Origin: Oscillospiraceae bacterium
GTDB taxonomy: Bacteria > Bacillota > Clostridia > Oscillospirales > Oscillospiraceae
NCBI GenBank assembly: GCA_015067525.1
Contig: SVMH01000018.1
Span: 1-38,549 of the forward strand
DNA: 38,549 nt
Reading direction: 5' to 3'
Shown here piece after piece: positions 6,794 through 37,321 of the stretch (its first letter is position 1; the number at the start of each line of letters is the position of its first letter). Below the pieces are notes generated by a model. That model had not been told where the DNA came from and did no database searches. It saw only the letters and a list, made by a program, of their open reading frames with translations. The position numbers were made by a program, and so were the translations under genes.

Positions 6794-8169
6794 AGCGAAA
6801 CTAAGTTTTCGCCGGCTTTCACAATATCACCGGCACCGACGGTGAGGATCAGGTCGCCGGGACGGGCGATCTTGGCCAGTTCCTCGGTGACTTCCGCCAG
6901 CGTGGCGCAGTAGATGCTGCCGGGGATCTTTGCCACCAGATCGCGGCTGGAAATGCCCAGATCGTTGCGCTCACGGGCAGCGTAGATCTCCGCCACGATG
7001 GTCACATCGGGCAGCTGCAGCTCCTGGACGAACTCGTCAAACAGGGCATGGGTGCGGGTGTAGGTGTGGGGCTGGAAGGCGCAGATGATGCGCTCATAGG
7101 GAAGGCCCTTCACCGTGGTGAGGAGGGCGTGGAGCTCACCGGGATGGTGGGCGTAGTCGTCATAGACCTCGGCGCCGTTGAAAGCGCCCTTATGCTCAAA
7201 GCGGCGGCCGGCACCGGTGAAGGAGCCCAGACCGCGGCTGACGGCACCGCCGGGGATGTGCAGCACATAGGCGGCGGAGGCGGCGGCCAGCGCGTTGAGG
7301 ATGTTGTGGCGTCCGGCTACCTGCAGCTCGGCGTGGGAATACTCCTCGCCGTCCACCAGAATATCAAAGCTGGGGAAGCCGTCATGGAAGGCCACATTTG
7401 CCGCGGTGCAGCGGGCAGGAGCGTTGATGCCGAAGGTGAACACCTCGCGGCCAAGTCCGCGGACGGAGTCCATAGCACCCTCGTCATCGGCGTTGACGAT
7501 GATGTGGCCATTCTCCGGCACAAGGGAGGCGAACTTGCGGAAGGAGCTTTCCACATCCTCCAGATCTTTGAAGAAGTCCAGATGGTCGGCCTCCACATTG
7601 AGGATGACGGCCACGGTGGGGAAGAAGCTGTGGAAGGAGTTGCAGTACTCGCAGGATTCGAGAATGATGGTGTCACCCTCACCCACGCGGTAGCCGGCGC
7701 CCAGCAGAGGCAGCGTGCCGCCGATCATCACCGTGGGGTCGGCCTGTGCGGCCATGAAGATATGGGTGGCCATGGAAGTGGTGGTGGTTTTGCCGTGGGT
7801 GCCGGAGATGCACAGGGCATTCTCGTACTGGCGCATGATGGCGCCCCACGCCTCGGCCCGCTCATAGACGGGGATGCCCCGGGCAATGGCGCCGGCGATC
7901 TCCTGATTCTCGTTGCGGATGGCGGCGGTGCGCACCACCAGATCGCAGTTACGCAGGTTTTCGGCGCTGTGGCCGATGTCCACATGGATGCCGAGGCTGC
8001 GCAGGTGCTGCACCGTGGGGCTGTCGTTCATATCAGAGCCCTGCACGATGAGGCCCATGCCCCGCAGGACTTCGGCCAGCGGGCACATGCTGACGCCGCC
8101 GATGCCGGCCAGATGCACGCGCACGCCGGGCTTCATATATTCGTGAATATCCACCTTGGAAAGGGACAT
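6784..8169 (-). CDS. murC: UDP-N-acetylmuramate--L-alanine ligase
   Basis: This 461-residue cytoplasmic ligase adds L-Ala to UDP-MurNAc in peptidoglycan synthesis. The N-terminal Rossmann motif is HLAGIGGVSMCPLAEVLRGMG (residues 19-39), with GSDM after it. The ATP-binding P-loop is GTHGKTTT (123-130). The central domain contains VEADHLDFF, and the C-terminal Mur ligase domain contains DDYAHHPGEL and FQPHTYTRT. GGAGGAG precedes the ATG. Length matches MurC (about 455-470). It is transcribed divergently from cca from an overlapping promoter. It is not part of a dcw cluster here. Confidence 0.97.
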   Translation of the reverse strand: MSLSKVDIHEYMKPGVRVHLAGIGGVSMCPLAEVLRGMGLIVQGSDMNDSPTVQHLRSLGIHVDIGHSAENLRNCDLVVRTAAIRNENQEIAGAIARGIPVYERAEAWGAIMRQYENALCISGTHGKTTTTSMATHIFMAAQADPTVMIGGTLPLLGAGYRVGEGDTIILESCEYCNSFHSFFPTVAVILNVEADHLDFFKDLEDVESSFRKFASLVPENGHIIVNADDEGAMDSVRGLGREVFTFGINAPARCTAANVAFHDGFPSFDILVDGEEYSHAELQVAGRHNILNALAAASAAYVLHIPGGAVSRGLGSFTGAGRRFEHKGAFNGAEVYDDYAHHPGELHALLTTVKGLPYERIICAFQPHTYTRTHALFDEFVQELQLPDVTIVAEIYAARERNDLGISSRDLVAKIPGSIYCATLAEVTEELAKIARPGDLILTVGAGDIVKAGENLVSLQK

Positions 8170-17738: not shown

Positions 17739-18427
17739 CGCGTCTCGCCCTCCATTTTGTAGCCCTTGCCCCAGACCACCTTGAGATAGCGGGGCTCGGC
17801 GGGGTTGATCTCGATCTTTTCGCGGATGTGGCGCACATGGACGGCCACGGGATTGTCGGCGGCGGGGGCCTCATGCCAGACACGGCGGTAGATCTCCTGC
17901 GGAGAGTAGACCTTGCCGGCGTTGAGCATCAAAAGGCGGAGGATGTCGTATTCAATGGGGGTCAGATTCACCCGCTCGCCGTCCACCGTCACGGTTTTGG
18001 CGTCGTCATCCAGCGAGATGCCGCCCACGGTGACGGTGCTGGGCTGCACGGTGCCGCCGCCCAGCGTCAGATAGCGCCGCAGCTGGGACTTGACCCGGGC
18101 CAGCAGCTCCACGGGGTTGAAGGGCTTGGTGACATAGTCGTCAGCGCCCAGATTGAGGCCTAAGATCTTGTCCGTGTCCTCGCTTTTGGCGGTGAGGAGG
18201 ATAACGGGCAGGTTGTGGTTTGCCCGCAGTTCCGTCAGACACGTGATGCCGTCCATCACGGGCATCATCACGTCCAGCAGCGCCAGATGGATGTCCTCGC
18301 GCTCCACAATGTTCAGCGCTTCGCGGCCGTTGTGGGCGGGGAAGACGCGGTAGCCCTCGGCGGTGAGATAGATGGTGAGAGCCGAGACGATATCTTTTTC
18401 GTCGTCGCAGACAAGGATGTTGTACAT
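17735..18427 (-). CDS. OmpR-family response regulator
   Basis: This 230-residue protein has a receiver domain (D9, phospho-acceptor D52 in LLDVMMPVMDG, T79, K101) and a C-terminal winged helix (about 130-228: LTPIEYDILRLLMLNAGKVYSPQEIYRRVW, AVHVRHIREKIEINPAEPRYLKVVWGKGYKME). The ATG at 18427 has AGGAG eight bases upstream. Extending the frame further would enter the repeat element at 18468. It is cotranscribed with the kinase. No good promoter is visible in the 40 bases before the repeat, so the promoter may lie inside the element. Confidence 0.94.
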   Translation of the reverse strand: MYNILVCDDEKDIVSALTIYLTAEGYRVFPAHNGREALNIVEREDIHLALLDVMMPVMDGITCLTELRANHNLPVILLTAKSEDTDKILGLNLGADDYVTKPFNPVELLARVKSQLRRYLTLGGGTVQPSTVTVGGISLDDDAKTVTVDGERVNLTPIEYDILRLLMLNAGKVYSPQEIYRRVWHEAPAADNPVAVHVRHIREKIEINPAEPRYLKVVWGKGYKMEGETR

Positions 18428-18467
18428 AAGAAACACTCCTGTGAAAAGAATCGATGATGTATTTACT

Positions 18468-18977
18468 GCCTCCGGCGGGCACTTTTTGTCAAGAGCGACA
18501 AAAAGTACCAAAAAACGCCCTTTGAAACCAATGGTTTCAAAACTTCCTTTGCGCGAAGTACAGCTCAACTTGCGCTATATGTTACCGCGCGGAAATCGGC
18601 GTGCGGAAACTTCCTCTAAATGTTGCATGGTCTTACGCATCCCCCTCGCTCGTCCGCTTACCCGTTCAAAATGTAGGAGACACCGCTTCTACATTTCAGA
18701 GCGGGGCGGCAGCAAAAAGAGAAGCAGGGACAATACCTGATTTGCACCAAAAACGCTGTTGTAACAAAACGCGCGGTAGGGAGAAAAACATTCTGCCCAA
18801 ACTGCCCCGTGCAAGGATCCATGACACCCCAAAAATACGAGCCAAAGGCGATGGATTTTTGGCTGGTGGAATGCATGCGAGCGCGAAGCGCGTAGCTGGT
18901 CAAGGAAACATTGGTTCCTTGCGGCGTTTCTTTGGTGACTTTCTTTCGCTGGTGAAAGAAAGTCACCCTGCGGAGCA
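18468..18977. mobile_element. Long structured non-coding repeat, copy 1
   Basis: This fills most of the 600-bp gap between the response regulator and the DUF1287 gene. It is homologous to 30248-30676. Terminal hairpins lie at 18481-18506 (ACTTTTTGTC with GACAAAAAGT) and 18934-18967 (14-bp stem). Inner hairpins are TTTGAAACC/GGTTTCAAA (about 18521-18541) and CAAGGAA/TTCCTTG (about 18901-18921). Both ends carry related inverted sequences (ACCAAAxAAACGCC next to the hairpin; a CGGAG-CA type tip). The core 18598-18672 is 74/75 identical to the other copy. Relative to copy 2 it has an 80-bp extra block (18818-18897). Short open frames in it are not conserved. It looks like a non-autonomous element or structured RNA gene; no transposase is near. 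Confidence 0.75.
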
Positions 18978-19002
18978 AATGAGTATATGGAGGCTTTGGT
19001 GG

Positions 19003-19017
19003 AAGGGAGCCAAAGGG
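19003..19017 (+). repeat. Remnant of a REP-like element
   Basis: AAGGGAGCCAAAGG matches the right arm and tail of hairpin 2 of R5 (30760-30773). It lies about 25 bases past the end of the long repeat copy 1, just as R5 follows copy 2. Confidence 0.5.
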
Positions 19018-19029
19018 GGGACGTCTTAT

Positions 19030-19692
19030 TTACCCCACCCAGCGGAAGTGACCGGTCACTTCCATGCGGTGCATCTGGTTGCGCTCCACCGCGTCCTCGA
19101 TGGGATTGCCGTGGTGGATGATGAAGGGGATGCCGTCGCGGTTGCGGCGGTCGGAACAGATGGCGATGTGGTCGCGATCGCCGAAAATGACGATGTCGCC
19201 GCCCTGCCAGTCCTCGGGATTCTCCAGCGAGCAGGTGAGTACCTGCGCGTGGCGGCGGAAGAAGGTGTCCAGCGTGCTGACGCGGCGGAAGTCGATGTTG
19301 CCGTCGGGCGTGGGGATGAAGGGATAGGCGTCGCGGTTTTCCTGAATGTCCGCGTCCACCAGATCCTTGAGCTCATACCCTGCCGAGCGGAAGGCCTGCC
19401 AGATCACGTCGGTGCACACGCCCAGTCCGTCGTCGGGATAGCCGCCGGCGTAGTACTTGCTGGCGTAGTGGGGGTCGGTGGCGATATAGGCCCGGGCGCC
19501 CCAGACCAGATCCTGATCGTCCGCCAGACCGTCGCCGTCGGCGTCAAACTCGCTGTGCACTTCTGTGATGCCCAGTTCCTCGGCGGTGTAGTACCGCTGG
19601 GGCAAAAAGGGGATCAGGGCGGCGATCAGCAGCGCGGGGATCACCAGCAGCCACCAGCGGCGGCGTTTTTTGGGGGCGGTGTAGCGTTTCAT
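19030..19692 (-). CDS. DUF1287 domain protein, membrane-anchored
   Basis: This 220-residue protein has an N-terminal basic stretch (KRYTAPKKRRR) and one hydrophobic helix (about 14-32), so the rest is probably outside the membrane. The DUF1287 domain carries GVCTDVIWQAFRSAGYELKDLV with a likely catalytic cysteine, DWQGGDIVIF, DHIAICSD and IIHHGNP, an NlpC/P60-like Cys-His arrangement. A calcium-type loop DADGDGLADDQD lies at about residue 50. The ATG with AAAGGA upstream is chosen over a longer frame. R4 lies in the leader. Activity (amidase or peptidase on the wall) is inferred from the fold, not shown. Confidence 0.82.
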   Translation of the reverse strand: MKRYTAPKKRRRWWLLVIPALLIAALIPFLPQRYYTAEELGITEVHSEFDADGDGLADDQDLVWGARAYIATDPHYASKYYAGGYPDDGLGVCTDVIWQAFRSAGYELKDLVDADIQENRDAYPFIPTPDGNIDFRRVSTLDTFFRRHAQVLTCSLENPEDWQGGDIVIFGDRDHIAICSDRRNRDGIPFIIHHGNPIEDAVERNQMHRMEVTGHFRWVG

Positions 19693-30225: not shown

Positions 30226-30247
30226 GGTGGCGGGAAGACGCGTTTGT

Positions 30248-30676
30248 TGCCTCCGGCGGCATACTTTTGTCAAGAGCAACAAAAGTATGCAAAAACGCCC
30301 TTTGAAACCCATGGTTTCAAAACTTCCTTTGCACGGAGTACAGCTCAACTTGCGCAACTCATAACCGCGCGAAAATTGGCGTGCGGAAACTTCCTCTAAA
30401 TGTTGCATGGCCTTACGCATCCCCCTCGCTCGTCCGCTTACCCGTTCAAAATATAGAAGCATCAGCTCCTACATTTCTGAGTGGTGCGGCAGCGAAAAGA
30501 GAAGTAGGCACAATACCTGATTTGCACCAAAAACGATTTTTCTTACACAGCGCGCGGTAGGGACTAAAACAATTTGCCCAAAGTGGCCTGTGCAAGGAGG
30601 TCAAGGAACCATCGGTTCCTTGCGGCGTTTCTTTGGTAACTTTCTTTCGCTGGTGAAAGAAAGTTACTCGTCGAAG
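30248..30676. mobile_element. Long structured non-coding repeat, copy 2
   Basis: This fills most of the 30226-30810 gap. It is homologous to copy 1 (18468-18977) along its whole length except for an 80-bp block missing here. Left terminal hairpin: 30259-30270 with 30279-30290 (12 bp, GCATACTTTTGT). Inner hairpin: TTTGAAACC/GGTTTCAAA (about 30301-30321). Right inner hairpin: CAAGGAACC/GGTTCCTTG (about 30602-30622). Right terminal hairpin: 30636-30648 with 30655-30667. The core 30378-30452 differs at one base of 75. The stems stay paired although their sequences differ between copies. Confidence 0.75.
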
Positions 30677-30723
30677 ACAGGACAAGATGGCAGTATAGCA
30701 GGGAGATGGTCCTGTACGGGAAA

Positions 30724-30772
30724 CCCCTCAGTCAGCTTTGCTGACAGCTCCCTTTACACAAGGGAGCCAAAG
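30724..30772 (+). repeat. Two-hairpin REP-like element R5
   Basis: CCCCTCA is followed by hairpin 1 (GTCAGC-3-GCTGAC, 30731-30745) and hairpin 2 (GCTCCCTT-5-AAGGGAGC, 30747-30767), then CAAAGG. It lies about 45 bases after the long repeat copy 2 and just before truA. Confidence 0.82.
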
Positions 30773-30810
30773 GAGTAGTTTTATTTGATTTAAGAAAGGT
30801 GGTGGGCGAG

Positions 30811-36006: not shown

Positions 36007-36834
36007 ATGCGCGTAAGAAACATCTGGGCGGTGTATTTCAGCGCCACCGGTACCACCGAAAAGACGGTGAGAACCGTTGCCGCCGCCGCGGCGGAGGTAT
36101 TGGACGCGCCGTGGCAGGCCGTCAGCTTTACCCTGCCCCAAGAGCGGCAGGAGAAGCTGCAGTTCTGCACCGGTGATCTGGTGTTTGTGGCCACGCCGGT
36201 GTACGCCGGCCGCGTGCCCAATGTGCTGCTGCCCTTTTTGACGGAGAATGTCATCGGCAACGGCGCACTGGCCGTGCCCGTGGTGCTGTACGGCAACCGC
36301 AATTATGACGATGCGCTCATGGAGCTGCGCAACATCCTGCAGGCCAATCATTTTGCCTGCGTGGCGGGCGCCGCCTTCGTGGGGGAGCACGCCTTCTCCC
36401 GCGTGCTGGCCGCCGGCCGGCCCGACGCCGAGGACTGCGCGCTGATTGAGGGCTTCGGCGAGGCGGTGGGCCGCAAGGTGCGGCGGCTGGAGCACACGCC
36501 GGAAACCGCAGTGGCGGTGGGCGGCTGCGATCCTATCCGCCCCTACTACAAGCCCCGGGACCGCCAGGGCAACTTCATCAATATCCTGAAGGTCAAGCCC
36601 GTGACGGACATGGACAAGTGCAGCGGCTGCGGTCTGTGCGCTGAAAAATGCCCCATGGGGTCGATTTCCGCCCACAACGTGGCGGAGGTGGCCGGCATCT
36701 GCATCAAGTGCTGCGCCTGCGTCAAGGGCTGCCCCACGGGGGCCAAATACTTCACCGACGAGGGCTACCTCTACCACCAGCACGAGCTGGAGGAGATGTA
36801 TGCCCGCCGCGGGGAAGTGGAGATGTTTTTGTAA
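36007..36834 (+). CDS. EFR1 family ferredoxin (flavodoxin-fold plus 2[4Fe-4S])
   Basis: This 275-residue protein has an N-terminal flavodoxin-like domain (VYFSATGTTEKTVRTVA, FVATPVYAGRVPNVLLPFL, VVLYGNRNYDDALMELRNIL). The C-terminal part carries two ferredoxin motifs (CSGCGLCAEKCP and CIKCCACVKGCP), the EFR1 layout. Such proteins shuttle electrons in anaerobes; the partner is unknown. GGAGGGGCG precedes the ATG. The stop TAA overlaps the ATG of the broken transposase (TAATG). Confidence 0.9.
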   Translation: MRVRNIWAVYFSATGTTEKTVRTVAAAAAEVLDAPWQAVSFTLPQERQEKLQFCTGDLVFVATPVYAGRVPNVLLPFLTENVIGNGALAVPVVLYGNRNYDDALMELRNILQANHFACVAGAAFVGEHAFSRVLAAGRPDAEDCALIEGFGEAVGRKVRRLEHTPETAVAVGGCDPIRPYYKPRDRQGNFINILKVKPVTDMDKCSGCGLCAEKCPMGSISAHNVAEVAGICIKCCACVKGCPTGAKYFTDEGYLYHQHELEEMYARRGEVEMFL

Positions 36835-37321
36835 TGGATGTTTTGCCGAAGCGCAAGTCGCCGCGGCTGGCGGATTGGGACTATTCCTCATCGGGTGCGT
36901 ATTTCGTGACGGTGTGTACCCGGGGAAAGGAAAGGCTCCTTGGAACGGTCGTAGGGGGCGGCGTTTGGTGCAGTTGACAGCACGTGGAAAGGCTGCACAG
37001 GGTATTCTGCTGCAAATGGAGGAGTACAAAACGGTAAAGGTGGAAAAGACAGCCATTATGCCCAACCATATCCACCTGCTCCTGTTCGTGAGGGAAGGTG
37101 AGTGTGCCGGTTCGTCGCAAGCGCCGAACCCTACGAATGCGGCTGTTCCGCTGTTTGTGTCTTTGTTCAAACGTAAATGTAATCGAATTTGCGGCGAAAA
37201 CATCTGGCAGCGCTCTTATCATGACCACATCGTCCGTGACGAGGCCGATTATCAGCGCATTTGGGAATATATCGACACCAATCCTGCCAAATGGCGGGAA
37301 GACTGCTTTTACAGCGAATGA
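36834..37321 (+). pseudogene. REP-associated tyrosine transposase (Y1/IS200-like), frameshifted
   Basis: Frame one (from 36834) gives the typical RAYT start with RLADWDYSSSGAYFVTVCTRGKERLLG and stops at 36977. A second frame continues with LTARGKAAQGILLQMEEYKTVKVEKTAIMPNHIHLLLF, the HUH motif (HIH), and the ending IWQRSYHDHIVRDEADYQRIWEYIDTNPAKW, which holds the catalytic tyrosine region. Joining them needs a one-base shift near the GGGGG at 36947-36951. RAYTs process REP palindromes; the REP-like elements in this window are possible substrates. It is likely inactive unless frameshifting occurs. Confidence 0.8.

Follow-up and report, generated by a model that had tools for sequence, protein, structure and literature searches.

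Bacterial MITEs are short, non-coding elements with terminal inverted repeats, which occur in many copies and carry no transposase gene of their own. This definition is taken in part from passages of PMC3116915, in which a REPIN is described as an inverted pair of REP sequences. The GTAG- and CGTC-tagged REPs and the TIR repeats of TIRYT elements are characterized, in the sections of PMC3733652 that were available, as palindromic, intergenic and often arranged as head-to-head dimers; some of them sit inside other palindromes, and the CGTC class is without a dedicated transposase. In the available text of that paper the strings 'firmicutes' and 'clostridi' have 0 occurrences. Palindromic structured-RNA candidates from human microbiomes form a further group. 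According to the relevant passages of PMC8040213 their motifs occur on both strands, 230 of the 250 were predicted to be possible terminators, and the remaining 20 are maybe REPs or something else. A search of the literature by title, with subscription journals and preprints outside its coverage, returned no title that describes the element family analysed here.

Anatomy of the two copies

The window is the whole stretch of 38,549 nt that was analysed (contig SVMH01000018.1), from an Oscillospiraceae bacterium whose draft genome consists of 1.97 Mb in 87 contigs. An initial annotation of this DNA had described two long repeats with the same order of hairpins, and they matched as it stated: copy 1 (18468-18977) and copy 2 (30248-30676) are 88% identical over 260 nt, 81% over 59 nt and 90% over 78 nt, and the left part of the element gave E 3.4e-114 in a search of its own genome. 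The near-invariant core of 75 nt was likewise found, with T/C at 18631 as the sole difference between the copies; the three minus-strand codon differences that the same annotation had placed in this core are at odds with a single one. Its observations on the stems could be read back from the sequence. The left terminal stem is built of different bases in the two copies (GCACTTTTTGTC.. and CATACTTTTGTC..) and the right terminal stem shows a G-C to A-T change (GGTGAC..GTCACC versus GGTAAC..GTTACT), pairing being kept in both. The inner stem AAATATAG/CTACATTT of copy 2 has an A.C mismatch on the plus strand, which is G.U on the minus strand. Two features were not in that annotation, namely an 80-nt repeat inside copy 1 and the inverted-dimer nature of the elements. 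Copy 1 is longer than copy 2 because of this separate repeat (18818-18897).

The element of approximately 430 nt consists of two inverted half-units of about 215 nt, each with three hairpins (H0, H1 and H2) and a core. Read inward, a half-unit contains the mini-hairpin H0, H1, AAAAACGCC or similar, H2, ACTTCCT or similar, the core and (A)TGTAG. The stem of H0 is 3 in the own genome and longer in some other genomes, and its loop is often TCC or TNCG. Taken on the outward strand, the sequence of the short H0 is C(GGA)G or C(GAA)G, a very stable type of loop in DNA, which provides a lead. The features of both copies are as follows; where no strand is given, none was assigned.

18462-18983, plus strand: element copy 1, a probable inverted dimer made of two half-units, with an inserted 80-nt module (end-model matches at 18462-18556, plus, and 18886-18983, minus; alignment with other copies)
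18468-18476: H0 left, copy 1, mini-hairpin GCC-TCC-GGC (stem letters covary between ends: GCC/GGC, GTC/GAC, TGC/GCA)
18479-18508: H1 left, copy 1, loop AAGAGC (sequence and covariation)
18521-18541: H2 left, copy 1, TTTGAAACC-AAT-GGTTTCAAA (sequence and covariation)
18598-18672: left half-unit core, copy 1, the near-invariant core of the initial annotation (1 difference from copy 2; resembles the core region of a single unit on a phage contig)
18669-18696: probable dimer centre, copy 1, AAATGTAG ... CTACATTT, half-units joined tail to tail (alignment with single units)
18818-18897, plus strand: inserted 80-nt module, a separate hairpin repeat (missing from the other nine aligned copies; present elsewhere in the genome and in relatives)
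18901-18921: H2 right, copy 1, one stem mismatch (sequence and alignment)
18934-18967: H1 right, copy 1, GGTGACTTTCTTTC-GCTGGT-GAAAGAAAGTCACC (sequence and alignment)
18969-18977: H0 right, copy 1, TGC-GGA-GCA (sequence and end alignment)
30243-30684, plus strand: element copy 2, a probable inverted dimer in the cbiQ-truA gap (end-model matches at 30243-30336, plus, and 30587-30684, minus)
30249-30257: H0 left, copy 2 (sequence and end alignment)
30259-30290: H1 left, copy 2, innermost pair C.A (sequence and covariation)
30301-30321: H2 left, copy 2 (sequence and covariation)
30378-30452: left half-unit core, copy 2 (comparison with the core of copy 1)
30449-30476: probable dimer centre, copy 2, AAATATAG ... 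CTACATTT (sequence and single-unit alignment)
30602-30622: H2 right, copy 2 (sequence and covariation)
30635-30668: H1 right, copy 2, GGTAACTTTCTTTC..GAAAGAAAGTTACT (sequence and covariation)
30670-30678: H0 right, copy 2, GTC-GAA-GAC (sequence and end alignment)

The two-unit structure was examined across the family. Among 80 ends, 29 facing pairs were found that span 384-602 nt, the limit for a facing pair having been set for the analysis at 1000 nt. Left and right ends align as inverted repeats. The halves of the element align lengthwise with single units that occur on phage contigs and in genome G021. When the left and right cores of five of the six own-genome elements (C78 was left out) were compared with the core of one phage unit, z values of 4.5 to 9.6 were obtained. 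For seven elements of other genomes the result was mixed (z -0.5 to 11.4), several of them having one half with a clear match and the other with none. Within one element the left and right cores matched each other significantly in 5 of 12 cases (C53, C16, G008b, G007 and G029; z 3.7 to 12.0), and the direct match was not significant in the other 7, which include both window copies and C63. As single units resemble each half and the cores match them, an inverted dimer is the best interpretation of the element. By the same alignments, the core of the initial annotation is best read as that of the left half, and the AAATGTAG/CTACATTT stem as the probable dimer junction.

Two other features of the window may be mentioned here. 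By eye, a repeat of the GGCTCCC..GGGAGCTG..CTGAGGG type adjoins copy 2 (30714-30775), an apparent remnant of it adjoins copy 1 (19000-19020), and the same type adjoins half-units on phage contigs. Positions 230-361 contain an ordinary ribosomal protein L10 leader (RF00557).

Distribution and gene context

The initial annotation would have been refuted by an absence of further copies, and such copies were found in the genome, the genus and the family with a covariance model (R1) of the element's end, built from 16 ends. The own genome gave 14 end-model matches and contains six complete or near-complete copies. Counting the own genome, ends were present in 23 of 32 genomes of the genus and in 32 of 81 genomes sampled across the family. 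The genus genome G008, assembled in two contigs, has 41 matches (45 at a looser limit), and one genome of the family has at least 51. The source genus also includes Vescimonas fastidiosa, and a match lies in genome G019 (record NZ_AP023416.1). In a class-wide search with stricter filters, in which 14 candidates per genome were scored, matches at E 1e-5 were obtained in 2 of 291 genomes, of which one is the own genome and the second also belongs to this family. A pattern scan of named genomes yielded 22 stretches, all in assemblies labelled Oscillospiraceae, Ruminococcaceae, Eubacteriales, Clostridiales or Clostridia, and searches of plasmid and phage records returned three records that each cover 13-15% of the query. 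Over the genomes sampled, their occurrence is a feature at the level of the family.

With genes taken from crude ORF calls, 41 of the 44 elements are intergenic. For the 38 that could be classed by gap type with the same calls, the gap is tandem in 22 cases, convergent in 11 and divergent in 5; copy 1 is among the six unclassed elements, and copy 2 was filed as divergent though cbiQ and truA run in tandem.

Probable insertion sites and presence on phage contigs

Copy 1 is flanked by a DUF1287 gene and a response regulator gene. These genes are separated by about 600 nt here, compared with some 26-30 nt in the 3 relatives that had both genes in the fetched stretch, from 17 fetched loci of which one is the own genome. 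Copy 2 lies in a cbiQ-truA gap of 576 nt. In 23 of 28 relatives (one of them judged from a partial alignment) this gap is at most 41 nt, and in the other five it holds 134-484 nt of other material, so that it accepts insertions of several kinds. The end model found nothing below E 0.1 at 27 of the 28 cbiQ-truA loci of relatives, and one weak match (E 0.006, 18 bits) at the remaining locus, L214; strong matches at this site were confined to the own genome. Since both window copies occupy gaps that are short in relatives, both look like insertions specific to this lineage. A convincing target-site duplication was not seen when the outer flanks of the 29 pairs and the empty sites were inspected by eye; a possible one of 7 nt, GTAAATA, lies beside copy 1. 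At the cbiQ-truA site of genome G024 a different repeat is present (L202, 1272-1501), which is built on AAGTGAAGTT-like motifs.

Single half-units were also found on phage contigs, at L270 2688, L273 7991 and L274 3730 and 5731. Some of them lie beside a capsid gene and are followed by (TTAACTG)n-like heptad tails. L270 and L274 carry a capsid gene, L270 also a portal gene, and L273 has a frame equal in length to the L270/L274 capsid frame. The presence of half-units on contigs with capsid genes implies that phages can carry them. The right-end pattern gave no match in the viral contigs.

DNA palindrome or structured RNA

According to the initial annotation the stems stay paired despite sequence change, and a larger set strongly confirmed this. 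Over 84 ends, the paired cells amounted to 94.7% and 483 cells were double-changed, a number reached by 0 of 500 shuffles and compared with 35-83 in slid controls, in an alignment that was itself fitted to the structure. A MAFFT alignment of 16 ends gave 94.0% paired and 73 double-changed cells (0 of 500 shuffles). Mismatches were counted without the model in the 268 hairpins of 134 ends, which have 2921 Watson-Crick pairs and 19 internal mismatches (1 G.T, 9 A.C and 9 other); this count is biased to good pairing, as weak matches were left out of it. It comprised 80 of the 84 ends of the first set (three weak matches and one end with the 80-nt module were omitted) and 54 of 82 in the second (25 under 27 bits, two cut by a contig end and one duplicate were omitted).

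An RNA read from one strand is expected to tolerate G-U pairs on that strand, the comparison here being made without an RNA control. The near absence of wobble pairs, together with the inverted symmetry, points to DNA, the stems being more probably DNA palindromes than the fold of an RNA made from one strand. If anything, the outward strand would be favoured, as A.C exceeds G.T by 9:1, the numbers being small. It should be noted that template switching inside perfect palindromes could produce the same covariation without selection on the structure.

The strong covariation and the conserved core would also suit a structured non-coding RNA, trans-acting or cis-regulatory, that is made from the element, with the repeats as paralogous genes. 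As RNA the whole of copy 2 folds with z -5.3; however, folding as DNA gives an equally exceptional value (z -5.9), hardly any wobble pairs are present on either strand and both ends are the same structure inverted. Furthermore, the two copies face the same way in the window whereas their neighbouring genes run oppositely, an Rfam scan of the window at the gathering score matched only the L10 leader elsewhere and not the element, and a scan for one promoter type gave no promoter-like match in 18300-19100 around copy 1. An RNA gene is therefore unlikely. The initial annotation had left the choice between a structured RNA and a cruciform-dependent element; the near-perfect Watson-Crick arms, the inverted ends, the insertion-like sites and the lack of an Rfam match strengthen the latter part and make the former less favoured.

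In agreement with the initial annotation, the element does not appear to be coding, and this now follows from other evidence: the half-units share no reading frame. The distance from H2 to the core, modulo 3, is 0, 1 and 2 in 8, 14 and 9 cases (31 measurable of 36 half-units). Of the 36 half-units, 11 have a frame that stays open over 210 nt outward and 17 have one inward. Counting against this, the mean longest open stretch exceeds that of base shuffles (58.8 versus 47.7 and 61.3 versus 51.4 codons). A coding element was rejected because no frame is common to the half-units.

Search for a mobilizing enzyme

The window contains a gene like that of a REP-associated tyrosine transposase (RAYT) at 36834-37321 (NF047646, E 1.8e-15, 57 bits, under the curated cut-off of 80). 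Judged by a motif in ORF 36648-36977, its N-terminal part presumably lies in another frame. With two inverted hairpin units the element has a REPIN-like architecture, and it could be a REPIN proper that is mobilized by a RAYT or IS200 enzyme, for which the window gene would be an example. Next to this gene, however, no end of the element was detected. Around 37 loci with genes of the Y1/RAYT family the end model gave no match below E 0.1 (best E 0.14). Matches to NF047646, some of which are IS200-like and not RAYT, occur in 8 of 23 genomes with ends versus 7 of 9 without (Spearman -0.25, p 0.16), and copy number was not positively correlated with Y1 or RAYT matches. In addition, three of the four most element-rich genomes of the genus (G015, G007 and G005, which are drafts) have neither a Y1 nor an NF047646 match. 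A RAYT or IS200 mover is not supported by these loci or by the copy numbers, and a REPIN proper is accordingly quite improbable.

Other candidates were considered. The one wide pair of facing half-units that was followed, in G021, spans 4.8 kb (L124, 170-4969) and by eye encloses hydrogenase/NADH-like genes; it was rejected as an autonomous copy. In three viral contigs a frame of 396 aa lies next to ends, and it was rejected likewise because it is a phage capsid protein in both contigs that were scanned, L270 and L274. Inspection by eye of the matches in G008 and G096 brought up no autonomous transposon that shares the ends.

A role at operon ends as an insulator, or as a terminator of transcription in both directions, that is kept by selection would fit the location outside genes, the few divergent gaps and the 4 terminator-like sites around copy 1 (shuffle mean 1.1). 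It is very improbable, as copy 2 splits cbiQ and truA, which are closely spaced in 23 of 28 relatives, a T run follows H2 only past a GGGCG spacer, unlike in a canonical intrinsic terminator, and an inverted dimer with a conserved core would be superfluous for termination.

Nested repeats

The 80-nt module of copy 1 recurs at other places of the own genome (C27 and C71) and in relatives (G024, G010 and G036). In other elements (C78, G024 and G010) it lies in or beside H1, near the tip. Layering of palindromes was observed in genome G008, where half H1 arms are found outside H0, and in genome G096, of another genus, which has a two-hairpin repeat in the loop of H2 (L145, about 7190-7260). Hairpin tips thus look like favoured landing sites in a handful of cases judged by eye, with no count against chance. 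Copies of the module were also seen at loci L021, L022, L025, L026, L032, L040 and L051, and in L022, L025 and L032 a tRNA T-arm-like GGTTCRAYCC precedes it.

Discussion

The element occurs in multiple copies, is built as an inverted dimer, has covarying near-perfect palindromes, occupies sites that are empty in relatives and is present on phage contigs. The most probable reading, to which we assign a probability of roughly 0.7, is a mobile DNA element of the non-autonomous kind, comparable to a bacterial MITE or to an oversized REPIN and with unusually elaborate ends. In such a mobile element the three hairpins of each end would fold when the DNA is single-stranded, as on the lagging strand, or extruded as a cruciform. 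An enzyme acting in trans might then bind the folded ends and cut them, after which the element would be pasted into intergenic DNA. The arms would stay complementary because the hairpin is the recognized feature; template switching within the palindrome, by which one arm is copied anew from the other, is a possible second cause. More speculatively, and with considerable doubt, the elements may form a family-wide class of mobile inverted dimers in which a fold of three consecutive DNA hairpins is recognized instead of a sequence, which are moved by an enzyme of a new class, and whose hairpin tips are preferred landing sites for other palindromic repeats.

Covarying palindromes are often taken as evidence for structured RNA, and in this family the same signal comes from apparent mobile DNA; the scarcity of wobble pairs may separate the two. 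The family offers a system for asking how the end of a transposon can be defined by its fold and not by its sequence, and what lets such elements persist in a single family of gut bacteria.

Compared with the microbiome palindromic candidates of 38-132 bp (PMC8040213, by the descriptions in the passages available), the element of about 430 nt is larger. With the MITEs it shares its small size (under approximately 600 nt in the 29 facing pairs), the terminal inverted repeats, the many copies and the absence of a coding frame and of an own transposase gene. Unlike in MITEs, its ends are three covarying hairpins, and neither a parent insertion sequence, among the loci covered, nor a convincing target duplication was found. 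The tagged REPs, as described in the sections available of PMC3733652, are likewise palindromic, intergenic, dimeric and nested, and the lack of a dedicated transposase is as in the CGTC class; unlike the element, they have a single stem, of 8-9 bp in the CGTC class and of 5-13 bp in the GTAG class, and lack a core. Like the REPIN of the passages of PMC3116915, the element is a non-coding, intergenic, inverted pair of hairpin units that is dispersed as one, with single units occurring too. Unlike the REPIN, it has three hairpins per half and a conserved core, a GTAG tag only near its dimer centre and not at a hairpin foot, and no RAYT link that could be found. It was not filed as a REPIN because its unit of about 215 nt with three stems departs from a REP of about 20-40 bp with a GTAG-like tag, and because the association with a RAYT fails. 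The element is probably an elaborate form among the non-autonomous palindromic mobile repeats, and its working would be REPIN-like.
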